From: Lentinula raphanica | Lineage: Eukaryota; Basidiomycota; Agaricomycetes; Agaricales; Omphalotaceae | Reading direction: 5' to 3' | DNA length: 64,000 nt | Assembly (NCBI GenBank): GCA_027919835.1 | Contig: JANVFP010000021.1 | Location: 1 to 64,000, forward strand | Shown: piece after piece, positions 41,727 to 57,255 of the stretch | Layout of the letters: the number at the start of each line of letters is the position of its first letter | How positions within the stretch are numbered: the stretch's first letter is position 1 | Made by a program: the position numbers and the translations under genes | Notes under the pieces: generated by a model | What the model was told of the DNA's origin: nothing | Seen by the model: the letters and a program-made list of their open reading frames with translations, nothing else | Database searches by the model: none

Positions 41727-42061
41727 GTTATACTTACTGATGAAGTGTGTTAAGTATAATGTGTGATAACACTACTCCAAGTTTTTGATTGTTGAGTATG
41801 TTATATTGATTGATGAAGTGTGTTAAGTGTAACACACATGAGCACTGTTCTGAGTTTTTTCATTGTTAAGTGCATTATGTGTGTTGAGTACAACACACAT
41901 GAATACTGTTTCGAGGTTTTTCATTGTTGAGTGTGTTGGGTATAATATACATTACTACTATTCCGAGTTTTTTCATTGTTAAGTGTGTTAAGCACTTTAG
42001 GCAACCACCAAAAGGTATCATATTAGATAGGACAAGACCTGAAAATCCCCTATCTAATATG

Positions 42062-42320
42062 CTGAAAATCCCCGGGAATTCCCCAATGGGATGTCCCACT
42101 CAGCTGGGATGTCCCAGGTGGGATGTCCCTATGGCCTGGGAGGTCCCATGTGGGATGTTCCTATGACTTGGGATGTCCCAGGTGGGATGTCCCTATGACC
42201 TGGGATGTCCCTATGGATGTGGGATGTTCCATGTGGGATGTCCCTATGGATGTGGGATGTCCCATGTGGGATGTCCCTATGGCCTGGGATGTCTTGTTCC
42301 TCATGTCTGGGACATCCCCT
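42062..42320 (+). repeat. GGGATGTCCC minisatellite, left arm of P6
   Basis: Units of about 18-21 bases alternate GGGATGTCCC with CTATGG or AGGTCC-type spacers. The unit is itself nearly palindromic. The mirrored array lies at about 43840-43889, 44242-44431 and 55253-55310. ORFs running through it are a by-product of the repeat length. Confidence 0.85.
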
Positions 42321-43891
42321 CACCTGGTATGTCTCTTTAGCTGGCATATCTCTCTGACCTGTTCATGTACTCAATGCTGATTACATAACCTATTAATCTT
42401 GAATGAAAAACTTAGAACAGTGGCATAGTGTGTTATACTCAATATACACAACTATCACTAGGTACACACTCAATATACTCATTATATTTAATAATGAAAG
42501 AATTTGGAACAGTCATCACTGTGTGATATAATTAACACACTCAACATCCATCATAGTTAAAACACTTGCACAAAATATACATTGATACACTTGACTGTAC
42601 AGAGAACAGGCAGAAATTCAGAGCAGTGTTATCACTCATGACATTCATTGCACACAGTACTTCATAAGTAAGTATGGTTGGAACATTATTATACCATGAT
42701 ACACATATAACAACGAGTTTTGGGCGCTTATGGGCGCTTATTTTGCGTTTTTTGACTTGAAATGCATGAATACCACACTCAATAATTTTTGTGTGGGCTT
42801 TATATTGTGTCAGGCTGTTGTCTATATCATAATCCCTTAGAAACAATTCGGAGAACTCAGAAATACAGCCTGTGGGGCAGGCTATGTCATGATCTTTTAT
42901 ACTTCAGCAGTGTTTTATGTAAATGACAATGCATATATCCATATAATGCAGGGACATTGAAGCTGTCTCATGGGGAGAGCACTCCTACAGCTTACTGACA
43001 GTGTTTTCACATGATTCAGATACTCACAATGACCATTGGACTCTCTTAGATATATTTACATATTTCATGTATACTAGTGATATGTAGACTTGCATACAAC
43101 TCCAGATGTCATATTCAATGACTCCAATTGTGAATCTCTCAGCTGTATGACACAGAGTAAGCATAGGATAGGCTGTAAAATAAATCTTTTGATGACCCAG
43201 TAGTGGTTTGACTTCATAACATGGGTGTATGCATTGTGATTTGAACAATGCACTGTTAAATCACAAAAGATCATGATATAGCCTGCCCCACAGGCTGTAT
43301 TTCTGAGTTCTCCGAATTGTTTCTAAGGGATTATGATATAGACAACAGCCTGACACAATATAAAGCCCACACAAAAATTATTGAGTGTGGTATTCATGCA
43401 TTTCAAGTCAAAAAACGCAAAATAAGCGCCCATAAGCGCCCAAAACTCGTTGTTATATGTGTATCATGGTATAATAATGTTCCAACCATACTTACTTATG
43501 AAGTACTGTGTGCAATGAATGTCATGAGTGATAACACTGCTCTGAATTTCTGCCTGTTCTCTGTACAGTCAAGTGTATCAATGTATATTTTGTGCAAGTG
43601 TTTTAACTATGATGGATGTTGAGTGTGTTAATTATATCACACAGTGATGACTGTTCCAAATTCTTTCATTATTAAATATAATGAGTATATTGAGTGTGTA
43701 CCTAGTGATAGTTGTGTATATTGAGTATAACACACTATGCCACTGTTCTAAGTTTTTCATTCAAGATTAATAGGTTATGTAATCAGCATTGAGTACATGA
43801 ACAGGTCAGAGAGATATGCCAGCTAAAGAGACATACCAGGTGAGGGGATGTCCCAGACATGAGGAACAAGACATCCCAGGCCATAGGGATA

Positions 43892-44239
43892 CTGTACCGT
43901 TACGACCACTTGTTCAGTCACGGGTCACCTGGGCCCAAAATGAACAGTTCACAGGGGGGTGTCACCAGTCACCGAGACTGGTGAACACTGTGACATCCAA
44001 AGGTAAAGAATTTTTATATAGCCAGAAGTATCTCTACAAGGCAAAAGTATTTGTTTTTATGATACAACAATGCAGGATAGATTTATTATAGCTGAAGCTA
44101 CTGGATATGAGTGGTGTAGACCCCAGTGAACAACTTTTCTTGGGGCTGTCACTGGTCACCCAGACCTGTGAACACCAAAAATACTGAACAGGGGGTGTCA
44201 CCTGTCACATCCTGTGAACAAGTGGTCGAAACGGTACAG
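43892..44239. mobile_element. TA-flanked MITE M1 in the minisatellite
   Basis: The ends are CTGTACCGTTACGACCACTT and, reversed, CTGTACCGTTTCGACCACTT, followed by GTTCA. TA flanks both sides (43890-43891 and 44240-44241). It is 348 bp, non-coding, with several GTCACCTGTCAC-like blocks. TA target and size fit a Tc1/mariner-type MITE. Confidence 0.8.
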
Positions 44240-44431
44240 TATCCCACATGGGACATCCCAGGCCATAGGGACATCCCACATGGGACATCCCACATCCATA
44301 GGGACATCCCACATGGAACATCCCACATCCATAGGGACATCCCACCTGGGACATCCCAAGTCATAGGAACATCCCACATGGGACCTCCCAGGCCATAGGG
44401 ACATCCCACCTGGGACCTCCCAGGCCATAGG

Positions 44432-44714
44432 TGTAACCGTCCGTGAGGATGGTTGTTTGGAGCTTTAAGGCTGCTAGTAGCTTGTAGCTTAATGTCTTAA
44501 TTCACGCGTAATGAACACGACGAGTCTCTTATTAGACTTCGCTATGTACGATTTTACACGGTAGAAAAGAACTACTGTAAATTATCTAATAGTCCGGTAT
44601 TTATAGTGCCGAGGAACTGTATAGTTCCTCGTGAGAATCAATGTCCGAAAAGAGAAACTTATAGATATTGATAAGATAATATGTATATAGAGGAGATAAA
44701 TAGGGGCCGTTACA
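44432..44714 (-). repeat. 3' LTR of the complete gypsy element
   Basis: This 283-bp LTR starts TGTAACCGTCC and ends GGGCCGTTACA on the plus strand. It differs from the other LTR at one visible base (ACGACGAG here, ACGATGAG there). The 5-bp target duplication ATAGG lies at 44427-44431. In element orientation it is the downstream LTR. Confidence 0.95.
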
Positions 44715-44726
44715 CCCTCCCCCATT
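44715..44726 (-). promoter_or_regulatory. Polypurine tract of the gypsy element
   Basis: On the minus strand AATGGGGGAGGG lies directly against the TG of the downstream LTR. This is the expected place and composition for the plus-strand primer of reverse transcription. Confidence 0.85.
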
Positions 44727-44802
44727 AGACTGAACCCAGCAGTCTGTACTCCTGGGGTAGCGAATATGTTTAATGACCTTTCTAGGTCAGTTATGGATAA
44801 CT

Positions 44803-45171
44803 TTATCGGGCTATATCCATACCCGTATCATCACCATCTCCGTAGTCGAGTATGGGATCTCCATTCACATCATGTGTCTCCTGGTCCCAATCTACAGGCT
44901 CAGGAACATCTATTGAGATACCTGCTTCAGGTGGTGGGGCCACAGTTGCAGTAGAGGGAGCAGGATTAGATTGAGCGGGTCCACTGTCGTTGGTCGCTCC
45001 TGATGCTCCGGTCAAAGCTCCAGTCGGGGCAATACGGTCGGCCTTGGGTATCAAGGCTTCCCTGATTAACTGCAATTCGGCGAAACGGCCAGCAGATTCG
45101 GTGTTGTCCCGCGTCGACCCATCCGTAAACACATAGTGTTCCGTGAACGTTGGTCCACTACGAGGTACCCC
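44803..45171 (-). CDS. C-terminal extension of gypsy ORF3 after a UGA codon
   Basis: After the TGA at 45174-45172 the same frame stays open for 122 codons to a TAA at 44805-44803. An internal Met lies at 45132. The text is Pro/Ala/Ser-rich, then acidic (YGDGDD near the end). No domain is recognised. It may be made as a readthrough tail of ORF3, or the UGA may be a mutation in this copy. Its codon 3 use and open frame look like the rest of the element. Confidence 0.5.
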   Translation of the reverse strand, partial: GVPRSGPTFTEHYVFTDGSTRDNTESAGRFAELQLIREALIPKADRIAPTGALTGASGATNDSGPAQSNPAPSTATVAPPPEAGISIDVPEPVDWDQETHDVNGDPILDYGDGDDTGMDIAR

Positions 45172-47631
45172 TCAATGAGAGTGGGGTACCAATACGTTGC
45201 GAACAACATGTACAAACTGCTGTTGAATAGCAGTTCCCATATTTGGGATTTGATGTGATACGTCTTCTATCCACCACATGAGATAGAGTGCCATGTCACT
45301 CAAATGCTCGCGAGTATATCCTCGCAATGATAGATCAAAAGCGATCTGTTCCACACCAACGGGTCCCGCGTACATGGGTAGAGGTCCCGGTCGGTGGGTT
45401 GGGTGAGGCGTTAACCCAGGTGCAGCGAGGATTCTCTCGTAGGCACCAGGAAGATACGCTAATTCACATAACACAAGGTGTATGTAAATATTCGCCTCCA
45501 GACTGGCGGCGTCATTTAACCCAAGAACGTTGGGTAGTAGGCGTTGTACCTCAATCATTCCGCGAATGCCTCTCGAGTTCGCAGCGAATGTGTAATCCAC
45601 AGTTTCTAACCTAACGCCTTGTGGTAATTCAGCGTTGGGTGTGTGGAGCAACCGATCAGCCCATTCGGCCTCGGTATGGTCTTCAGTCAGCCCTTCCCAA
45701 GCTCGTCCATCTCGCACTTCTGCGAGGCGGGTCTGCAGACTCTGACGAGGTCTCGCCGTGGTTCCCTCAGTCGGATTCTCAGTCCCGGTAGGATTCAGCG
45801 ATTCTGGCGAATCGTGAGACGCCGACGTCCCTGTCTGGTGTCTACTCGCAGTAGTATATACTGGCTGCGAGTTAGGGAAAACAAATGGCCTCTTCTTTTG
45901 GGAAGCCATTGCCTCGTTATACCATCGAGGTATATAGTTGAACCTGGAGACTAGGGATCGCTCCAGTTCACTGCGATTGGCCGCAGGGATAGCACGAGCA
46001 TGCTCGTACATACGGTGCATGCCTTGCATCGTCCTCCACATAAGTCGTGGTGGAGTGAAAGAATCAGATTCACGCAGAGCGTGATTGATAGTATCCACCT
46101 CTTCAGCGGTGGTGGGCTGTTGAAACTCCTCTTTTGAGAAGTCTCGACGAAGAGCGTCGAACTCCCTCTTCTTACTGCGCTTCGAATTTTTAGGAGGGGG
46201 AGGCAGTCCGAGGACTTTGTTTCTGCGCACTGCATCTTCGTACATTTTTCGCTTCGCTTCTTTATTTATGCGATTTTGGCGAAGTCGAGCCTCTCCTTTC
46301 AACCGATTGGGATGAGGGTCGGGCTCGAAGTCATCACTCACGTCTGATTCTTCGGGGATAGTGAGACGAGTGACTCCAGCCGGAGTGGATGAGTACGGTC
46401 CCTCATACGGCTCAGCGGTTCTACCGCTACCCTCTTCTACTCGTGATTGGGTATGAGGGTTGAACTCCGAAGACAGAGTATTTAGTGGTAGTCTAACTAC
46501 CACACTACCAGCGTCCGACGACGCCGTTGTGGACACTGGAACCCCAGGGAGGTCCGTGTCTTCGCGCATCGGTGACAAACGTCGCGCTAAAGGGATAGTT
46601 GGATCCCGATTCTCCGCTCCTCCCGTCTGAGAGAGGCGTTGTTCTAACGGTACCATAGGTACCTCCCTTCCTTTTCCTTTGCGGTCTGGCTTCTTATTAG
46701 GTCGAGAGCGTTCCTCCCAAGTGTCTGGCTGGGCAGGTTCTGTCACTCTGGAGCCGCTCGATGAAGGTCCAGCCACCTTGGCTTCTGCTTCACGGTCGGG
46801 GGTACCGTAGCGATACTTCCAGTATCGTCGACTCTCATTGAGTTCACCGTTTTCACGCGTCAATTCGTCCACTTGAGCGCGTTCTTGATGATATCTATCT
46901 CGATAATCATCACGTTCTAGCTCTAGGGCTAGTATCCGATCCCCCATCGTCTGGCGCTCGATATCCCTCATACCTCGTAATGAGGTTAGTTGCTCTTGGA
47001 GCGAATTGATGAGAGGCTCATGATTACATGTAGCCGATGAGGTGGTAGCGGCGCCGTTTCCTCGAATTTGGCTGTCTCGTTGTGCGATGACGCTACCAAA
47101 CTCGTCAGTCATGGACGCCATGGCCATGTGCGCGATGTAACTAGTACATATCGTGCAGCCCTCGGAGTGAGCGATGATGTTTCTGAGGGTAATCCTTAGC
47201 GGTGGTGCCTGCTGAGGCGGTGGATGGGTACCCATTCCTTGGAATGGTAAGTTGGGTGGTTGTATCCCAAATGGAGGTTGTGGTGCGGGGAGATTGAAGT
47301 TGGGTGGTATCTGCTGTTGCGGATACGAGAACGCGTTGATTGGGGCCTGTTGTGCAGGCGGGGGGTGTTGTAGTTGGAAAGGGAAGACTCCCGAATGGGG
47401 CCCTCCCCCCGAAAATCCTGAAATATCAGGATTATTTGGACCGTAGTCCGGCGATCCCGACGTGTTGGGTGTCGAGATCACAGTGTTTGTTGTGTCATTA
47501 GACCCATAGGGTCCACTGAACACGTTTTGTTGAGAGCCCGAAGGCCCAGGCTGGTTGGAACTGCCAGACGGCGTGTGCGACATGATAGTCTTTGAAAAAG
47601 AAAACTTAGCCGCGACGCGCGCTTGGACCAT
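45172..47631 (-). CDS. Gypsy third ORF, unknown accessory protein
   Basis: This 819-residue ORF lies downstream of pol in the same frame. The first in-frame Met is at 47631. The N-terminal 170 residues are Pro/Gln/Gly-rich, then a CTICTSY Cys pair, a coiled coil at about residues 205-275 (LQEQLTSL, ALELERDDYRDRYHQE), a long polar linker, a basic patch (KNSKRSKKREF), and a C-terminal helical region with PRLMWRTMQGMHRMYEH, IPRWYNEA and MALYLMWWIEDV. I see no signal peptide or membrane anchor, so an envelope protein is not supported. A role as an accessory structural or nucleic-acid-binding protein is only a guess. It begins 29 codons after the pol UGA with no other stop between, so it could be made by readthrough or internal initiation. 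Confidence 0.75.
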   Translation of the reverse strand: MVQARVAAKFSFSKTIMSHTPSGSSNQPGPSGSQQNVFSGPYGSNDTTNTVISTPNTSGSPDYGPNNPDISGFSGGGPHSGVFPFQLQHPPPAQQAPINAFSYPQQQIPPNFNLPAPQPPFGIQPPNLPFQGMGTHPPPQQAPPLRITLRNIIAHSEGCTICTSYIAHMAMASMTDEFGSVIAQRDSQIRGNGAATTSSATCNHEPLINSLQEQLTSLRGMRDIERQTMGDRILALELERDDYRDRYHQERAQVDELTRENGELNESRRYWKYRYGTPDREAEAKVAGPSSSGSRVTEPAQPDTWEERSRPNKKPDRKGKGREVPMVPLEQRLSQTGGAENRDPTIPLARRLSPMREDTDLPGVPVSTTASSDAGSVVVRLPLNTLSSEFNPHTQSRVEEGSGRTAEPYEGPYSSTPAGVTRLTIPEESDVSDDFEPDPHPNRLKGEARLRQNRINKEAKRKMYEDAVRRNKVLGLPPPPKNSKRSKKREFDALRRDFSKEEFQQPTTAEEVDTINHALRESDSFTPPRLMWRTMQGMHRMYEHARAIPAANRSELERSLVSRFNYIPRWYNEAMASQKKRPFVFPNSQPVYTTASRHQTGTSASHDSPESLNPTGTENPTEGTTARPRQSLQTRLAEVRDGRAWEGLTEDHTEAEWADRLLHTPNAELPQGVRLETVDYTFAANSRGIRGMIEVQRLLPNVLGLNDAASLEANIYIHLVLCELAYLPGAYERILAAPGLTPHPTHRPGPLPMYAGPVGVEQIAFDLSLRGYTREHLSDMALYLMWWIEDVSHQIPNMGTAIQQQFVHVVRNVLVPHSH

Positions 47632-47718
47632 GCAAACTTTCCCACGGGTAAAACTTTCGTAACTCCGGCCGAACTCGGCAGAACCACGATCACCTGGTGG
47701 GGATCCTGAACCTGCGAG

Positions 47719-50700
47719 TCATTTTCGCGGTAGTTGTCTCCAATGGGAGACATTCTTTAACGCTAGATATCTATCTAACGCTTGAAGATCACTACAAGTA
47801 GTGTAGGGTTCGACCGTTATGTCACCCATATTCCATAACACATGGAAGAATAACTTTTTCCCTTGCCATTGATGACCAACGATGTCATCAACAAGCCACT
47901 CGACTTCGACAGGTTCACCGAAGTCGTAGGGTTGGGCTTGACTACGATCTGGGAATAATACGTCGTCGTTGGCGACGTGTGGTCTCAAGAGAGATACGTG
48001 GAATTTGTCATGGATTCCACGTTTACGGAGTTCTGTTGGTAGTCCCAGCTGGTACACCGATTTCCCTTCGACTACCTCAGTTATGGGGTATGGCCCAACG
48101 AATTTGGGCAATAATTTTCTCGCTCTGCCTTTTGGGAGATTGAGATTGGTGGTAGCGAGATAAACCAGGTCATTGACCTTGATCTCCGGCTCCTCTCGTC
48201 GATGTAGGTTCGACCAATGAGTTTGAAATACTCTAGACGCTATTATAGCGTCATGAGCCTCTGCCAGATGGGAAATCGTTTGGGCAGCGAAGTGTCTAAC
48301 TCCTGGAGCCACGGCAACTTCTGCTGGTAATTCCCGGATCATGGATGGGAGATAGCCACCGTCAAGTTCGAACGGCGCGAATCCGGTGGATTCATTTACG
48401 CTCGCATTGAGCGCGAATTCCGTCATAGGAATTTTCTCCAACCAATCTTTCTGATTGGGCTTAACCACAGATCGGAGTACCTGCGTTATCGAGCGATTGG
48501 CTCGCTCCGTGACTCCATCCGTCTGTGGATGGTAGGAGGTAGACATGAGAAGCTTAGCTCCCAGTAACCGATGTACTTCTCGCCACCATCGCGAGATGAA
48601 CTTCGGGTCTCTGTCTGACACGATAGACTTGGGAAGTCCATGTAGTCGTACTATTTCTTTCAAAAATAGTTCGGCTAATTCGACGGCAGTCGTCGAGGTA
48701 TTGAGAGGAATCAAATGATTCCTAGCCGTCAATCGGCATATTACCACCCAAAGATAATTACATCCTTGGGTTTCGGGGAATGGTCCAACAAAGTCCATCC
48801 CAATGGATTCCCATGGTTTAGTGGGAATCGGGAGGCTGTGAAGCTTCCCGGCAGGTCGAAGATTTGGTTTCTTTGACCGTTGACAAGTCTCGCAGGACTT
48901 GCAGAATAATTCGGTGTCACCATGTATTCTGGGCCACCAATACCATCGTCTGACATAGTCCGATGTTCGTTGCTCTCCGAAATGACCAACGATTTCGTGT
49001 GCTTGCTCCAATACTAGCCCACGTAATGTCTTTCCAGACGATGATTTACCGCCAGGGATACACATTACTTCCTCTCCGCTGCGGTTAGTGGTGTAGATCA
49101 CCTCATCGATCACACGGAACCCCTTGTGATCACTAGGATGCTCAAGTATTTTCTGGAGCAGTGCATCCTTCGCGGATAGTTTCTTCACTTCTTTCACGAA
49201 GTCATCCGGTCCCAATACCACCGGTATTGGTTCTATCCCCCTTGCGCGGGATTCTAGGATGGTAGGATTATAGCCATCCGCCTCTCCTTCCGAATTTACC
49301 AGATCGGGTTCTTGGTTATCCTGCAGTATTTTTGCTTCGGTATCACGAAGTTCTTCCTCTTCTCGGAGGGCTGCCATCCGAGTTACCTGCACTTCAATTA
49401 CTCGTTGTGCAGGTAAATCGTCCATCTCTTTGTCGAGTTGAACATCGGCATTGACGTACTCGGATGCCGAATGAACTTCGTTCGGAAGGTCAGATTCAAA
49501 ATAGCGAGACAGTGCGTCTGCTATCCTGTTAGTTGATCCTTTGATATAGCGTATATCAAAGTCATATCGAGATAGGTATTCCATCCATCTCGTTTGGCGG
49601 CTGCTCAAATGCCGCTGAGTCTTAAAGAATGTCAACGCTTCGTGGTCTGTTACTATGTGGATGCGATATCCCATAAGTTTATCAGACCATTTGAGCAATG
49701 CTTCAAGGATAGCGAGTGTTTCTTGTTCGAACACTCGGTAGTTCATCTGAGCAGCAGTGAACTTTTTGGACATGAATCCCGCTGGACGGCATTCCTTCCA
49801 GGTGGGACCTTGACCATAGTAGGCTCCAATGCCACTGACGGATGCGTCGCATATGACCCATATGGGTTCACCCGTTCTCGGGTCTATAGGTTTCAACACA
49901 GGAACCTTCTCAGACGTGGCCAGTCTCTTGATGTTCTGGAAGCACGTTTCATGGAACGGAAGCCACACGAATGGGACATTGTTCCGACACATCAGCGACA
50001 GAGGGCTGGTGTAAACTGCCACAGATGGCATATAACTGGCTAGGTACTGTACCAAACCTAAAAACTTCTGAACATCATTGAAGTTTCGTGGTGTTCTCCA
50101 CTCTCGGATTTTCGCCATCTTATCCATGTCGGCATGGATTCCCTGGTCGTCTATAAGATGACCCAAGCAATCGAGTTCGTTTGCATACAACTCGCATTTT
50201 TCAGCCTTTAAATAGAACTTCTGTTGTCGCAGTCGTTCAAACACCTGGCCTAGGTGCTTTTCATGATCCTCTATAGAATCACTGAATGTGAATATATCGT
50301 CTAAATAGACGTGTACAGATCTCCCTATGAGATCTTGAAACGTTCTCGTCATTATACGTTGGAACGTAGCAGGAGCGTTACAGTCTCCCTGCATCATGAC
50401 CTGGCTCACATATGTGCCATAGATTGTTGCGAATGCGGTCTTGGGTACATCCTTGACCTCATTGCGTATCTGCTCGTACGCATCCGACATATCGATCTTT
50501 GATCGATATTTATGTCGTGCCACATCTGATCGTATGTGGTCTTGGTCAGGGAATGGCGTTACATCCTTGACCGTATTTTCGTTCCGTTGCCGATAATCGA
50601 CAATGGTTCGTAATTTCCCATTCTTCTTGGGAATACACAGCATTGGAGCTGCTTGCGGAGCGGTGGCATGAATCCACCATTGAGCTCGAGTGTATCTTTC

Positions 50701-51501
50701 GAGTTTTTCAGACAAGTCAACTTTCAGACTGTCTGGACATCGAGGCATATAATAATTATACCTCTTATCCTCATCGATCAGTGGTATTCGATGATTAATC
50801 TCCCTTAATGGAGGGAGAGTTTCTGGGACGCCTTGCAGCATGTCCTTATTCCTTTCGAGCCACCCTTCGCGCAGTCGCGGGACATCTCTAGAGGATAATC
50901 GCTCTTCATGAGCGTTTAGGGATTTCATAACCCCTATGGGTGATTCCATTTCGATTTCGTCAAACGGAATATAAGTCAATTCGGCGTGTCTAGCCCTGAA
51001 TTGTCGACGACGGCGTGCAGTGAATCCTGTACGACGTTTCTTTTTCAACCCTTTTCGATTGTTCGACGTGGGTACTTGACCTCGTCGTTTATGACTATGT
51101 ATTATACACAGTCTATCCGATGGTCTGAGTTTGTGGGTATGTTCCACAATCTCATAGTCCTCCTTTACGGAGTAATCAGAACCCGACTCTGATTCATCGT
51201 CAGTGAACCCTTCAATGAGTTCTACCGATTGTTGGGGTTCGGGAAATACCTGTCTTCCCTCCCCCATTTGATGTTTCCCTAAGGTAGCATCAAAACGTCT
51301 TGAAAACTCCTGGACAAATTCCACACCGTCATCTAACATCTCCGGACGGATGTCAACCTGATCATCAGGATCAGCTAGGCTAATCACCATCGGGGAATCA
51401 GATGGTAATGCTCGTTTTATTCGAGCAATTTCTTCTCGGATATCCGAGTCATCCATCGTCTCTTCGATGGTAGGTCTACGAGAGAGCTTCTCAGCTTCCA
51501 T
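47719..51501 (-). CDS. Gypsy pol: reverse transcriptase, RNase H, integrase
   Basis: This 1260-residue ORF makes the replication enzymes. A long basic N-terminal region (KKKRRTGFTARRRR) precedes the reverse transcriptase, with YLDD in HVYLDDIFTF at about codon 397. RNase H starts at VICDASVSG (about 549). The integrase finger runs HEIVGH to CETCQRSK (about 837-868), with catalytic Asp in GMDFVGPF, Asp in VSDRDPKF and Glu in TERANRS (about 902, 960, 998). The C-terminus (VEWLVDD, LFFHVLWNMGD, QALDRYLAL) looks like a chromodomain. All key residues are present. There is no protease here: it is at the end of the gag ORF. The first Met is 10 codons after the gag UGA in the same frame, and pol itself ends in UGA-CUC. 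Expression by readthrough is therefore likely, and the given start may not be used. Confidence 0.93.
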   Translation of the reverse strand: MEAEKLSRRPTIEETMDDSDIREEIARIKRALPSDSPMVISLADPDDQVDIRPEMLDDGVEFVQEFSRRFDATLGKHQMGEGRQVFPEPQQSVELIEGFTDDESESGSDYSVKEDYEIVEHTHKLRPSDRLCIIHSHKRRGQVPTSNNRKGLKKKRRTGFTARRRRQFRARHAELTYIPFDEIEMESPIGVMKSLNAHEERLSSRDVPRLREGWLERNKDMLQGVPETLPPLREINHRIPLIDEDKRYNYYMPRCPDSLKVDLSEKLERYTRAQWWIHATAPQAAPMLCIPKKNGKLRTIVDYRQRNENTVKDVTPFPDQDHIRSDVARHKYRSKIDMSDAYEQIRNEVKDVPKTAFATIYGTYVSQVMMQGDCNAPATFQRIMTRTFQDLIGRSVHVYLDDIFTFSDSIEDHEKHLGQVFERLRQQKFYLKAEKCELYANELDCLGHLIDDQGIHADMDKMAKIREWRTPRNFNDVQKFLGLVQYLASYMPSVAVYTSPLSLMCRNNVPFVWLPFHETCFQNIKRLATSEKVPVLKPIDPRTGEPIWVICDASVSGIGAYYGQGPTWKECRPAGFMSKKFTAAQMNYRVFEQETLAILEALLKWSDKLMGYRIHIVTDHEALTFFKTQRHLSSRQTRWMEYLSRYDFDIRYIKGSTNRIADALSRYFESDLPNEVHSASEYVNADVQLDKEMDDLPAQRVIEVQVTRMAALREEEELRDTEAKILQDNQEPDLVNSEGEADGYNPTILESRARGIEPIPVVLGPDDFVKEVKKLSAKDALLQKILEHPSDHKGFRVIDEVIYTTNRSGEEVMCIPGGKSSSGKTLRGLVLEQAHEIVGHFGEQRTSDYVRRWYWWPRIHGDTELFCKSCETCQRSKKPNLRPAGKLHSLPIPTKPWESIGMDFVGPFPETQGCNYLWVVICRLTARNHLIPLNTSTTAVELAELFLKEIVRLHGLPKSIVSDRDPKFISRWWREVHRLLGAKLLMSTSYHPQTDGVTERANRSITQVLRSVVKPNQKDWLEKIPMTEFALNASVNESTGFAPFELDGGYLPSMIRELPAEVAVAPGVRHFAAQTISHLAEAHDAIIASRVFQTHWSNLHRREEPEIKVNDLVYLATTNLNLPKGRARKLLPKFVGPYPITEVVEGKSVYQLGLPTELRKRGIHDKFHVSLLRPHVANDDVLFPDRSQAQPYDFGEPVEVEWLVDDIVGHQWQGKKLFFHVLWNMGDITVEPYTTCSDLQALDRYLALKNVSHWRQLPRK

Positions 51502-51531
51502 TCTCTCGTTCTCCTCTCGGAGGGCCCGGAG

Positions 51532-54500
51532 TCAGATGGTAGATTCAGACGGGGAAGGGTTATCCTTCCTCTTCACCTTCTCATTCCTTTCGGAATGCCT
51601 CATGGCGACACGTCGCTGGAATTCAGCGGCGTCCTCAGTAGCAGTCATCGCGGCTATTTTTGTGCCGTTGATGTTGATAACGTTGTTCTTGAAATCAAGA
51701 ACAACGTTATGTTTCCTCATCCAATACGTGCCTATTACCGCATCGTATCGATCGAGGTTAACGATATCCCAATATGTGGGGTATTGAGCTTCACCTACTA
51801 TGACATCTGCATGAGTGCCATAGTTAAATTTGGCACGACTGCCAATCGTACCCAGCTGCAGACTATGTTGCTGGGTGAGTTCGAACACCTTATGTTTAGC
51901 CACCTGGGTAAACATTGGTGTGAGTGCTTCTAGAGAACTCCCAGAGTCGAACATAAGAAGCGCTACTTGCCCTCCTATATTCATGAGGCAGGACATCATG
52001 CGTCGATCTTCAACGGTACCACGTTGTGGTCGGTCAATCTTACTGGAAGATTTGCGCATGACCACGCTAGTCATTATAGTGGGTTGCTGGCTATCCTTTT
52101 GAATAGCCACTAGACGCACATCGTCATCGATATAGCTGTATAACAGCTCACCCTCCTCTTCAGAGGATGGTTTAGACTCTCCTGATGCGACTTCTGGCCA
52201 AGGGTCAAAGTCGTGGCATTCTATCAACCCAGGAGGACAGTCATCTACTCCGTAAGGAGAGTGGTTAATGGGGTCGCCCATGATGATATCTTCCTCGACA
52301 TCATCACCCGCCTCCTCATCGAGTACGACATTGCCGTCACTCAACTCGACCCATCTTGCTCCATCTTGGTACACTATTGGGTGTCCTAAGATGTTGTCGA
52401 GCGGAACGCTCATACCAGTGAGTCGATCTTCATGCTCCAAAGAATCGTCTTCACTTTCGATGGACTGATACATGGCACCCATGTAGTCCTCGTACTCTTC
52501 GAGCACGTATTCGCCATCAGAGGCTTCTACTAATTCGGCTTGTCCATTAGGACTGTTAGTGTCCTCAGTAGCGTCCTGCACTACTACTACCTCGGAATCA
52601 TGCGATTCGGGGTTTTCATTGTCTTTATCAGATACTTCATCGCTAATGGAGAACAACCGTTCTTTTCCATAGCGTTCGCATGATGGGTCGTTGTGGAAAT
52701 GACCCGTTTTCCCACACCCCCAGCACAGTTTTGGGGTGTTTCTGCGACCAGTGTTGGTCGCAGCCTTATCCTGCGGTTTCTCCGCGGGAGCAGACATAGC
52801 GGCATGTCTGGGCATATTGTTGCCCACTGTGTTAACAGGTTTCGACCAAGTGGTCGTTGGGCGATTGGTCTGATTGGACAGTTTTACCAATCGAAATCGT
52901 TGACCGTTCCCTCTGGAATAACTCCCTACTCTCGCGGCATTGGGGGATACATTTCCAGTTTGCCCATGAAGCAACTTGGTATTAGCAGCCATATTGTCTG
53001 CTTCTTCTTTCCTACGAATGCAGTTCACAATCTCGCGAACTGACGCGACTTCAGGAACAACATGTTCCTCCCTCAGATGATTGATGAGGCTCAAAGGTAT
53101 ACCTTCGAGTAATCTCGTTCTGAACGAGTGTTTACTCGGTATATGGAGTAATCTCAACGCGAACCTATTCAGTTTCGCGAAGAATTCTCTGATACCTAGC
53201 TTGGCATCATACTTAGCAGTACGCCAGCAAGTCTCAGCGTACGTGAAGACTTCGTCTTGCACGAATCGTTTGAATAGTCCAATCAGGACTTCTTCAGTCT
53301 TCCACATATCCCGGACTCTATGTGGTCCAGTGACGTGATCATGATACCACAGTTTGGCATCTCCATCAAGCATGCCTTCAAGGCATAGTACCTGCATACC
53401 ATTGCCTTCCGGGCCAGTCAATCGATTCACCACCATCCAGTTGATGACTGAATTGACCCACGTCTCGAAAGTATCGATGTTACCATCGCCTGCCCATGGG
53501 TCTGGGTATTTGATTTTAACGTTCTTTATGCCTTCGAGTGAAGGTAGAACTTGATCCAACTGTCTGCGTATTCCTTCCAGCAGTTGCTGCTGTATACGAC
53601 GATTGTACTCGTCGTGGCCTCGATTGGTTAATATATCCAACATTTCACGAGCCTTTTTTGCCTTTCGGCGTTTTTTCTTCTCCCGCTTACGCTGGGATTC
53701 CAGACGAGCTTTCTCACTGGGGGTGTCACTGAACTCAGCGTGGACAGATTCTTCTGAATCTGACTGGAGCCAAGGCGTTTTACTACGCCTGTCATCCTTG
53801 GACGGGTTATACCCATCGAATGAATTATCGGACGAACTGCCATCGCTATCGTCTCCAGGATCCCGATCCCCTTGAGCAGTTCTGAGCTTCTCGTCCGGGG
53901 GGTACTCCCTCTCATGGGGTTTTCCTTCGGTGTCGAAGGCGATATTCTGGTCATACCATATACATTGGTTGACTGATGATCCAGCTCTGAGAGCATGGAC
54001 TCTCAAGACTTGACCTATCACTCGGTCTTCCCATCGAAGTGGTTTACCAATGTAGCGATTACTACCCGGGATCTTGACGAACCTCGGGTCGTTCACCATC
54101 TCGTCGAACGTTTTCCCATTAGGGTAAACGTGTCGAGTGCTAGGCTTAGCACTCGTCTCGAGATTGATGTTCTCGTATATATCATTCTCGGCTTCTTCAG
54201 CCTTGACTGATAGTGCCTCCGTGTTCTGAATTTCTACTTCCCCTGAAGGTTTTGCGGTTTCCTCCTCGACAGAAGATTCGTTGACCCAGTCTCTCAGGGT
54301 CTGAAACCTCTTTTTTAGAAGGTCGTTTTGCGATTCCCGCAATTCCTTGATCGATTTTTCAAGGATACTCTGGGCCTCATTTTCCTGAGACTCCAGGAGT
54401 TGTATTAGCGTTTGCGTACGCTTTTCAGGGGTTCGAACACTGGTATTTTCGTCTACCAGTATTGGATAACCCAGTTTTCCTCCTAGTTCAGGAGACTTAC

Positions 54501-54903
54501 CAGCGTCGTTGCCTTGTTGCGCAACGAGCTCGGGAGACTTATTGCCCAACAGGGCATTTTCTCTCTTACGATCGGCCGCTGCCGCTAATGGGGAACTACG
54601 AATCGTATTTCCTAGAGAACTCGTCTGGGAGTCATCCTCCTCAGTCGTTTGTTCCCTGATTTGACCAGGTTCCGTAGGGGAACGAGGTCGTCGTGGTGGT
54701 AAACCACCAAACGGATTTTCAAAGTCCGCCGTAGTCGTGACTACGTTGTCTCGGTCCACCTGACCAGAGTTGCTCGTATTAGGCTGACCATCGTCAGCCG
54801 GATTATTGGCAGAAGAGCCCAACGTTTGGGTCGGATCTGCCTTTTGAGGTTCAAATAGTGGTCCTATCTTAGGACCCTTTTTGCTGTCTTTTTTCGGCGG
54901 CAT
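51532..54903 (-). CDS. Gypsy gag-protease polyprotein
   Basis: The 1123-residue ORF starts MPPKKDSKKGPK at 54903, about 66 bases after the upstream LTR. A disordered acidic N-terminal part is followed by a retrotransposon gag (capsid-like) region at about 465-635 (FETWVNSVINWM, LCLEGMLDGDAKLWYHDH, EVFTYAETCWRTA). A zinc knuckle CWGCGKTGHFHNDPSC lies at about 724-739 (C-x2-C-x4-H-x6-C, a slightly long last gap). The aspartic protease is at the C-terminus, with the catalytic motif in LLMFDSGSSLEA (about 985) and a hydrophobic VIGTYWMRKH flap partner region. Placing protease with gag and ending in UGA-CUC before an in-frame pol is the arrangement expected if a small share of gag ribosomes read through into pol. 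Confidence 0.92.
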   Translation of the reverse strand: MPPKKDSKKGPKIGPLFEPQKADPTQTLGSSANNPADDGQPNTSNSGQVDRDNVVTTTADFENPFGGLPPRRPRSPTEPGQIREQTTEEDDSQTSSLGNTIRSSPLAAAADRKRENALLGNKSPELVAQQGNDAGKSPELGGKLGYPILVDENTSVRTPEKRTQTLIQLLESQENEAQSILEKSIKELRESQNDLLKKRFQTLRDWVNESSVEEETAKPSGEVEIQNTEALSVKAEEAENDIYENINLETSAKPSTRHVYPNGKTFDEMVNDPRFVKIPGSNRYIGKPLRWEDRVIGQVLRVHALRAGSSVNQCIWYDQNIAFDTEGKPHEREYPPDEKLRTAQGDRDPGDDSDGSSSDNSFDGYNPSKDDRRSKTPWLQSDSEESVHAEFSDTPSEKARLESQRKREKKKRRKAKKAREMLDILTNRGHDEYNRRIQQQLLEGIRRQLDQVLPSLEGIKNVKIKYPDPWAGDGNIDTFETWVNSVINWMVVNRLTGPEGNGMQVLCLEGMLDGDAKLWYHDHVTGPHRVRDMWKTEEVLIGLFKRFVQDEVFTYAETCWRTAKYDAKLGIREFFAKLNRFALRLLHIPSKHSFRTRLLEGIPLSLINHLREEHVVPEVASVREIVNCIRRKEEADNMAANTKLLHGQTGNVSPNAARVGSYSRGNGQRFRLVKLSNQTNRPTTTWSKPVNTVGNNMPRHAAMSAPAEKPQDKAATNTGRRNTPKLCWGCGKTGHFHNDPSCERYGKERLFSISDEVSDKDNENPESHDSEVVVVQDATEDTNSPNGQAELVEASDGEYVLEEYEDYMGAMYQSIESEDDSLEHEDRLTGMSVPLDNILGHPIVYQDGARWVELSDGNVVLDEEAGDDVEEDIIMGDPINHSPYGVDDCPPGLIECHDFDPWPEVASGESKPSSEEEGELLYSYIDDDVRLVAIQKDSQQPTIMTSVVMRKSSSKIDRPQRGTVEDRRMMSCLMNIGGQVALLMFDSGSSLEALTPMFTQVAKHKVFELTQQHSLQLGTIGSRAKFNYGTHADVIVGEAQYPTYWDIVNLDRYDAVIGTYWMRKHNVVLDFKNNVININGTKIAAMTATEDAAEFQRRVAMRHSERNEKVKRKDNPSPSESTI

Positions 54904-54969
54904 TGTTCTATTCAGATAACTGAATGAAAATTTACTAACGGAGTTTTTAATGCTCGGTGTTCAAAAAAC

Positions 54970-55252
54970 TGTAACCGTCCGTGAGGATGGTTGTTTGGAG
55001 CTTTAAGGCTGCTAGTAGCTTGTAGCTTAATGTCTTAATTCACGCGTAATGAACACGATGAGTCTCTTATTAGACTTCGCTATGTACGATTTTACACGGT
55101 AGAAAAGAACTACTGTAAATTATCTAATAGTCCGGTATTTATAGTGCCGAGGAACTGTATAGTTCCTCGTGAGAATCAATGTCCGAAAAGAGAAACTTAT
55201 AGATATTGATAAGATAATATGTATATAGAGGAGATAAATAGGGGCCGTTACA
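54970..55252 (-). repeat. 5' LTR of the complete gypsy element
   Basis: 283 bp, identical to the LTR at 44432-44714 except one visible base. In element orientation it is upstream and should hold the promoter. The 67 bases between it and the gag ATG are the leader; a primer-binding site was not recognised in it. The ATAGG duplication follows at 55253-55257. Confidence 0.95.
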
Positions 55253-55657
55253 ATAGGGACATCCCACCTGGGACATCCCAGCTGAGTGGGACATCCCATT
55301 GGGGAATTCCCGGGGATTTTCAGCATGTTAGATAGGGGATTTTCAGGTCTTGTCCTATCTAATATGATACCTTTTGGTGATTGCCTAAAGTGGTGTTAAG
55401 TGTGTTAAGTATAATACACATGAACACTGTTTTGAGGTTTTTCATTTTTGAGTGTGTTGAATATGATATACATTACTACTATTCCGAGTTTTTTCATTGT
55501 TAAGTGTGTTAAGTGTGTTAAGTATAATACACATGAACATTGTTTTGAGGTTTTTCATTGTTGAGTGTGTTGAATATGATATACATTACTACTATTCCGA
55601 GTTTTTTCATTGTTAAGTGTGTTAAGTATAATAAGCATTGAGTGTGCTGAATATACT

Positions 55658-56690
55658 AATCAGGAAAAATGTACTGAGCTCTCAGCCACTAAAAGCTGCT
55701 TTCAAGCCCCCTAGGGCCTTCCAAGGCTTTGGAGCCCCCAAGGCATGCAAAGATACCCCCCAAATCCTAGGCACTCTCAGCCACTTGAAAGTTCTGGGGT
55801 ATTCTTTGAGGTGCTTTGAGGTGCTTTGAGAATCTTTGAGTGTCTTTGAGTGTCTTTGAGTGTCTTTGAGTGTCTTTGAGGATCTTTGAGTGTCTTTGAG
55901 GAGCTTTGAGATGCTTTCAAAGGCAAAAAATATGAATAAAAATTAATTGATTCCTCTTATTTATATTTTACATTACATTCTATTTTAGATTCTTGTTTTA
56001 TGTAATTTCTAATTATATTATATTACATAAGACTTATATAATTACAAGAATTTGTAATGTACTAGTTAATTATCAAATTATATAGAGAATCTAATCTACA
56101 AATCTCACATATAAAGTCCTTCATTGAGATATGATAACATATACAACATGTAGATATGTAGTTAATATAGCTATATATAAGTTTGGACCATGTGACAAAC
56201 TTTTTGATTGTACATGGTTCACAGTGGCAGCCCAAATATATCATTGAAACAAGATCTTGTCAAAGTTGTCAATGGCACTTTTTGATGCATGTATTCTCTA
56301 GATTAAGCAAGTTCTGCAATACACTTATGAAATTTTCTATTTGGGTGATGTTTTCTTCATTTAATTTGATATTAAAAATTGCTAAAAAGCTCTGCAAAGA
56401 CTCTCAAAGACTCTCAAAGATCCTCAAGGATTCTCAAAGCACTTCAAAGCACTACAAAGCAGTTTAGTGACCAGGGTTACCTAGGCAACCTAGGCCATTG
56501 AGGCACTTTCAGAGTCCCTAGGAATTAGCCATTTCTTGAGGTGCTCTCAGATCAAAGTATATTCCTTTGAGGTTGCCTAAGAAATACCCATTTTTCTCAG
56601 TGCTTTCTAGCTCTCCTAAGCATGTAGGCCCTCTAGAGAGCCTCAAAGATACTCATAGTTGCCTAGGCCTAGAGTGTTTTTCCTGATGGC
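55658..56690. mobile_element. E-family element E6 in the right arm of P5
   Basis: It starts AATCAGGAAAAATG and ends GTTTTTCCTGATGGC, about 1.03 kb. CT lies at both edges (55656-55657 and 56691-56692), but the empty site elsewhere reads GAATATATTGAATG, so the boundary is less clean than in other copies. Tandem TCTTTGAGTG units occur at about 55805-55910, with an AT-rich centre. Confidence 0.75.
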
Positions 56691-57255
56691 CTATTGAATG
56701 ATATAAGCCATTCTAAGTGTCTGAGTGTACTAGGAGTGCTAAAAATAGCACGTACATCATATATACTCAATGTATAGAGAATCTGGTATGATTTGGAGTG
56801 ATAAAAATTTTTACATTTGTCGCGTATTTTTTTTATTTTGCGTTTTCAGGGCCAACAAGGTGACCCTGAATTTTTTGAGTATTTTTGTGATTTCTTTCAG
56901 ATTTTTTGCTACCTAATGAGATCAAGTTCTATTTTTGGACCAATTTCCTTTTTAGGCAACTTTGATGTGTCTGGGATACCCTATACAGTTCAGTTATTAT
57001 TGCCTAATAAGGCTATTTTTGACGTGGTTCAGCCCTATAGCAGTGGTTTAATAACCCAAACAAACCACCAAAAGTTACAGTAGACTTTTTAAAAGGTACA
57101 TTTCCTAAAAAGGGTATTTATAATGTGGTTCAGCTCATTATAAGTGGTTCAATGCCCGAAACAAACCAGTAAAATTTGCGGTACACCTTTTAAAAGGTGC
57201 ACCATGTAACTACAGTGTACTTTTTAAAAGATACTACAATATTGGCTGATGGCTT

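Follow-up and report, generated by a model that had tools for sequence, protein, structure and literature searches.

The first 64,000 nucleotides of contig JANVFP010000021.1 (assembly GCA_027919835.1), the stretch analysed here and called the window below, come from Lentinula raphanica, a mushroom related to shiitake, and contain on the minus strand a Ty3/gypsy long terminal repeat (LTR) retrotransposon of about 10.8 kb (44432-55252). Its two LTRs (5' LTR, 54970..55252; 3' LTR, 44432..44714), each 283 nt long with the form TGTAAC...GTTACA and TG...CA ends, differ by one mismatch, and they are flanked on the same strand by the target duplication CCTAT (5' side, 55253..55257; 3' side, 44427..44431), as is typical of Ty3/gypsy elements. 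Near-identical LTRs within such a duplication suggest a recent insertion. Between 54903 and 44803, a single minus-strand frame runs through the element with exactly four stops, the remaining five frames of the same stretch containing 115 to 237 each. Stop 1 (TGA, 51534-51532, followed by CTCCGG) ends the gag-protease (Gag-PR) open reading frame (ORF) and lies between the protease and the reverse transcriptase (RT); stop 2 (TGA, 47721-47719, followed by CTCGCA) ends pol; stop 3 (TGA, 45174-45172, followed by GGGGTA) falls within a third frame, ORF3; and stop 4 (TAA, 44805-44803) is the final stop of the element. The initial annotation of this DNA had placed the starts 54903, 51501, 47631 and 45132 in one minus-strand frame, with UGA-CUC at the ends of both gag and pol, no further in-frame stop at either main junction and UAA as the last stop, and the frame scan bears out each of these statements. 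Of the two-site readthrough that it built on them, the gag-pol half is strongly supported by the comparisons below and the pol-ORF3 half is not.

The gag-protease ORF (51535..54903, minus strand) encodes 1123 amino acids from its ATG, with a CCHC knuckle 397 codons upstream of the UGA and a protease (51646..51957) whose DSG motif is located about 138 codons before it. The protease piece of the window has no Pfam match and matches weakly the solved retroviral-like aspartic protease 1 (E 0.0034), and sub-threshold Pfam aspartic protease matches were obtained with the equivalent pieces of two other genomic copies, C14 and C8 (E 0.0011 and 0.0068). Across nine copies examined, the protease motif is found 137-152 codons ahead of the UGA in eight and is missing from the ninth, the decayed copy C21b. 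Past the UGA, pol is open for 1270 codons (47722..51531, minus strand; first in-frame ATG at 51501) and presents RVT_1, RT_RNaseH, Integrase_H2C2, rve and SH3_Tf2-1 in the domain order characteristic of Ty3/gypsy elements. Neither this pol nor its C-terminal piece matches a chromodomain; PF00385 is listed for 8 of the best-listed 120 pol relatives.

Copies were gathered by gag, pol and ORF3 searches of the genome (49 Mb, 75 contigs, the window belonging to contig C21), one search scoring all 127 first-look candidates, and 15 copies of the clade have a readable gag-pol junction. By similarity they form eight lineages: A1 (window, C17 and C50) and A2 (C31, C30, C2, C33 and C36b) in group A; B1 (C14), B2 (C21b and C7), B3 (C36) and B4 (C15) in group B; and two single-copy lineages, C8 and C39, in group C. 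A midpoint-rooted pol tree built by a quick method from 51 rows (nine copies, two pieces serving as outgroup, and every third one of the 120 listed relatives, 40 in all) joins A to B and C to metagenome relatives, all inside a single 28-row clade at support 100. C7 (L008, L031) and C21b (L005, L028) lie on different contigs with near-identical pol (branch lengths <0.01) and identical junctions over 150 nt; the pol of C7 breaks down shortly past the junction, leaving a decayed pol N-terminus, and the decayed gag of C21b breaks down ahead of it. The nearest other group in the genome encodes protease and RT in a single open frame, at eight places and over 2556 to 2695 codons. An initial M is present in 112 of the 120 listed pol relatives, and the RT motif is recognised in 91 of those 112, no more than 450 residues from the start in 83 of the 91; this fits a pol carried on its own ORF, with the caveat that the length filter biases the sample and that a UGA is not thereby demonstrated.

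At the gag-pol junction, all 15 copies read TGA followed by CT, and the gag and pol codons on either side share its frame, the same UGA-CU arrangement as in the Tj1 and Tosmo elements of fission yeasts. At this junction, the check that the initial annotation had proposed for both, namely whether relatives keep UGA-CUC while the flanking codons vary, comes out in its favour as far as UGA-CU. Specifically, among 63 aligned columns of the eight lineage representatives, T-G-A-C-T alone is invariant, all other columns being shared by at most six of the eight; the stop is preceded by GAA in each of the four B lineages, by ATC in group A and by AAA or AAT in group C. After the stop, five lineages have the codon CTA and three have CTC (P = 6e-4 against the leucine usage of these pol genes, a value that serves as a guide only because the lineages are related). 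The UGA is the sole interruption in the window, C14, C15 and C8, whose gag-protease frames are open over 1142, 1134, 1208 and 1174 codons and whose pol frames are open over 1270, 1277, 1254 and 1208 codons, respectively. Frameshifting at this junction is ruled out by the identical frame in all 15 copies, and fungi are described as being without selenocysteine machinery (PMC4207609, available in part).

In group B, the codons that follow the UGA behave as coding sequence. Over the first 26-27 post-UGA codons of group B, all of which precede any in-frame ATG, rough values from these short stretches give a nonsynonymous divergence (dN) of 0.25-0.54 against a synonymous divergence (dS) of 1.1-2.0 for five pairs, with one further pair saturated. 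By this measure, purifying selection acts on the group B codons that separate the UGA from the first in-frame AUG.

The RNA downstream of the UGA adds a second layer of evidence in group B. There, a stem whose first pair lies 11 nt past the UGA is paired in 29/32 cells with compensation at 4/8 pairs, its covariation score was reached by 3/500 shuffles, and shifting one arm by 1-3 columns lowered pairing to 25-47%. As a wider control, the scoring was extended to all eight-pair helices with loops of 3-30 anywhere in the pol alignment. In the three-sequence version, which is free of interfering gaps, the score was reached by the group B stem and two overlapping stretches of that same stem alone, among 93,696 helices; with four sequences and the gap of C15 placed in the loop, the group B stem was the only one of 89,720 to reach it. 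The first 54 nt after the UGA are also more stable than synonymous recodings in six of the eight lineages (z -2.3 to -4.2), with z of -2.6 in the window, -3.8 in C31, -2.4 in C14, -4.2 in C21b, -3.5 in C36 and -2.3 in C15. In group A, the hairpin CTCC-GAGA-GGAG that the initial annotation had pointed out after the gag UGA is present (51511..51522, minus strand), with arms invariant in eight copies; because the stem never varies within the group, it is beyond the reach of a covariation test, and we set it aside as evidence. A second hairpin with the arms ACGAGAGA and TCTCTCGT (51478..51509, minus strand) has one compensated pair between two lineages.

Taken together, these patterns make it very probable that the window carries a young Ty3/gypsy element in which programmed readthrough of a single UGA links gag-protease to pol. 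We infer its mode of expression from the sequence comparisons. Most ribosomes would terminate after the protease and release Gag-PR, and a minority would decode UGA-CU as sense, yielding Gag-PR-RT-RNaseH-IN; the protease would thereby be produced at the Gag level, and dilution would be confined to RT and integrase (IN). RNA hairpins about 10 nt downstream would probably assist, a role to be read most cautiously in group A. ORF3 would be expressed as a separate protein from its own conserved AUG; the UGA-CUC at the pol end of the window would be an ordinary stop, and the third UGA a nonsense mutation.

Several points weigh against this interpretation. All 15 copies come from one genome, many of them are decayed and several are near-copies of one another. 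Coding constraint past the UGA is weak in group C (dN 0.56 and dS 1.03 over 23 codons), where the RNA is also little structured (z -1.6 in C8 and -0.5 in C39). The four-sequence helix test follows the DNA aligner in assigning the 3-nt gap of C15 to the loop; under the placement chosen by the codon aligner, the group B helix is unscorable and 0 of 89,765 helices reach the threshold. Covariation in group A amounts to one pair common to two lineages, a count reached by 444/500 shuffles, and windows as stable as the post-UGA segment make up 3 to 30% (50-nt windows) or 1 to 57% (40-nt windows) of the rest of the same stretches. Finally, in the Ty1/copia element Tca2 of Candida albicans, in which a UGA likewise separates gag from an in-frame pol and a pseudoknot may form 8 nt further on, but which belongs to another superfamily, this arrangement directed no readthrough in Saccharomyces cerevisiae, according to the accessible part of the report (PMC2194720).

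The best-surviving alternative, itself improbable, extends readthrough to the pol-ORF3 junction, so that both UGA-CUC sites would be programmed and Gag-PR-Pol-ORF3 would be made; in the form that best accommodates the relatives, and to which we give the same small chance, the subfamily of the window alone recruited the second UGA-CUC and a few ribosomes make the full product by two successive readthroughs. If true, this would carry ORF3 into the particle at very low dose. The window copy itself is compatible with it, as UGA-CUC stands at both sites in a common frame and the pol-ORF3 spacer (47584..47718, minus strand, 135 nt) is open; P0001, the ORF3 of a related element, is moreover open for about 42 residues ahead of its conserved start, an extension that aligns without gaps to that of the window, and the two copies nearest to the window, C17 and C50, are missing the pol end. 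The other relatives speak against it. Pol frame ends could be read in 12 copies, those of C30, C36 and C39 being possibly displaced by decay, and they comprise four TGA (followed by CT in the window alone and by TC, GT and AT elsewhere), three TAG and five TAA. In eight copies with a recognisable ORF3 start, ORF3 is in frame 0, 1 or 2 relative to pol in three, four and one, respectively, and seven of the eight have an additional in-frame stop ahead of that start, the window alone being without one. The spacer differs in length and frame in most relatives, and one spacer base sets the frame of C31 apart from those of its near relatives C2 and C33. Stops, contexts and frames at the pol end thus differ among relatives, which the initial annotation had itself named as the outcome that would count against it, and the second UGA-CUC is not a conserved site.

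ORF3, furthermore, has its own conserved start, MSHTPSG, from which it extends over 45175..47583 (minus strand) by homology. The start at 47631 given in the initial annotation is in the right frame and is displaced, homology placing the start at the ATG at 47583, 48 nt further in. What had been described as a separate tail (44803..45171, ending with the UAA at 44805-44803) is the C-terminus of ORF3, severed by the third UGA, a stop that had been left undiscussed. The best match by identity, the Lentinula raphanica protein P0002 (99% over 72% of the query; 15/15 matches are named Lentinula), continues through the site of the third UGA, which identifies the window ORF3 as truncated and this UGA as a nonsense mutation; intact ORF3 copies exist. 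A Lentinula ORF3 profile matches the downstream ORF of C14 (probability 94.6, E 7e-8), itself 55% identical to that of C7, and does not match the downstream ORF of C8. The ORF3 proteins tested gave no Pfam match above the cut-off, and the ORF3 profile gave none to a solved chain; a cysteine-histidine motif is visible by eye, and weak matches suggest a coiled coil. On these comparisons, ORF3 is a fast-evolving separate protein with its own conserved AUG. The spacer DNA ahead of it contains blocks (TTCGGCCGG and CGTGGGAAA, identified by eye) common to the window, C31, C2 and C33 despite their differing frame (L039, L045, L047), hinting at a non-coding signal for ORF3. A pyrimidine-rich AG ahead of the window ORF3 is not claimed as a 3' splice site, as it has no clear counterpart by eye in C31, C2 and C33.

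A further alternative, slightly less credible than the last, dispenses with readthrough altogether and has pol restart at a downstream AUG after gag termination. The distances in group A would suit it, the first in-frame ATG lying 11 codons past the UGA in A1, the window included, and 12 in A2. In C8 it lies at codon 9. Elsewhere the first ATG comes later, at codon 28 in C14 and C36, 39 in C39, 59 in C15, 116 in C21b and 200 in the decayed C7; the group B codons ahead of it are constrained, and re-initiation would need neither a shared frame nor an invariant U-G-A-C-U. That the gag UGA is a random nonsense mutation or is spliced out is the least plausible reading of all, for although such stops do occur in these copies, including in the ORF3 of the window, this one is kept in 15/15 copies, four of which have no other interruption in gag and pol, and the coding alignment reaches it from both sides, although no systematic search for splice sites was made. 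Programmed readthrough of the single gag UGA is therefore the reading we retain.

Known retroviral systems share parts of this arrangement. In murine leukaemia virus, an RNA structure that follows the gag stop at the distance of a spacer is described as promoting its readthrough; this virus uses UAG rather than UGA together with a known pseudoknot and, unlike the Lentinula element, has its protease located after the gag stop. In alpharetroviruses such as avian sarcoma-leukosis virus, the protease is on the gag side and RT and integrase alone are on the rare product, as is proposed here; unlike the Lentinula element, they use a -1 frameshift. To our knowledge, a stop placed after the protease has not been described in combination with readthrough.

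The closest parallels come from fission yeasts, in whose Ty3/gypsy elements of the Tf1/sushi group (Tosmo1-3, Tcry1 and Tj1) a strictly conserved GAA-TGA-CT is reported between Gag and a protease-containing Pol, with an in-frame TGA-CT at gag-pol in all five (PMC10085805, partial text), and the efficient integration of Tj1 is reported to require the gag stop (PMC4600332, partial text). The full GAA-TGA-CT is matched by the four group B lineages, whereas the subgroup of the window has ATC in place of GAA. In further contrast, the stop of the yeast elements precedes the protease and that of Lentinula follows it, and the accessible parts of their descriptions mention neither a third ORF nor a covarying hairpin. 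The view of the initial annotation that readthrough is unusual for Ty3/gypsy elements is thus partly right, fission-yeast members having UGA-CU at gag-pol (PMC10085805). Within basidiomycetes, work on Ustilago maydis states that UGA-CU is enough for efficient readthrough (PMC4207609, partial text); the core motif is the same, and the proteins concerned are cellular enzymes with a peroxisomal tail rather than retroelement products. A UGA also separates gag and pol in a Verticillium copia element, as far as the available text describes it (PMC3441728). We recognised no description of such readthrough in mushroom retrotransposons among the titles and abstract openings searched, a sample that includes only a minority of subscription journals.

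Regarding the initiation of reverse transcription, no TGG-type primer site was found directly 3' of the 5' LTR (54945-54969), and the longest part of the 25 nt following the LTR that is complementary to the LTR, relevant to self-priming of the Tf1/sushi kind, is 7 nt, near chance. The element is embedded in a repeat of GGGACATCCCA-like units (42000-44431 and 55253-55385), beside an inverted repeat of 678 nt (42274-42951 and 43212-43889, 97%); a 133-nt stretch recurs in inverse across the element, on the opposite flank, and tandem-like short direct repeats occur at 55393-55670 and 56999-57200 (113-nt copies with 52-base spacing, and two 101-nt copies 77% alike). Downstream of C8, a beta-galactosidase C-terminal reading (L048, 2826-4067; Pfam Bgal_small_N, E 2e-72) presumably represents a neighbouring host gene. 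Two scans for DNA of the relatives in viral contigs confirmed none. Gypsy-like pol readings with 31-36% identity on five short contigs in bacterial metagenome-assembled genome records (L050-L054) are probably eukaryotic contamination.

Gag-pol readthrough at UGA-CU has already been described for fission-yeast Ty3/gypsy elements, in the portions of that work available; new here are the mushroom clade, the placement of the stop after the protease, the covarying hairpin and the fast-evolving third ORF. The claim of two successive readthroughs, which would have been surprising, is removed. Under the reading that we favour, conserved UGA-CU readthrough between gag and pol would extend from fission yeasts to mushroom retrotransposons, with the protease encoded on the side that is made in abundance and dilution limited to RT and integrase. 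The subgroups would also form a natural series (CUC with two hairpins, CUA or CUC with a covarying hairpin, and CUA with little structure) that may allow the shares of stop context and RNA structure in readthrough to be separated.

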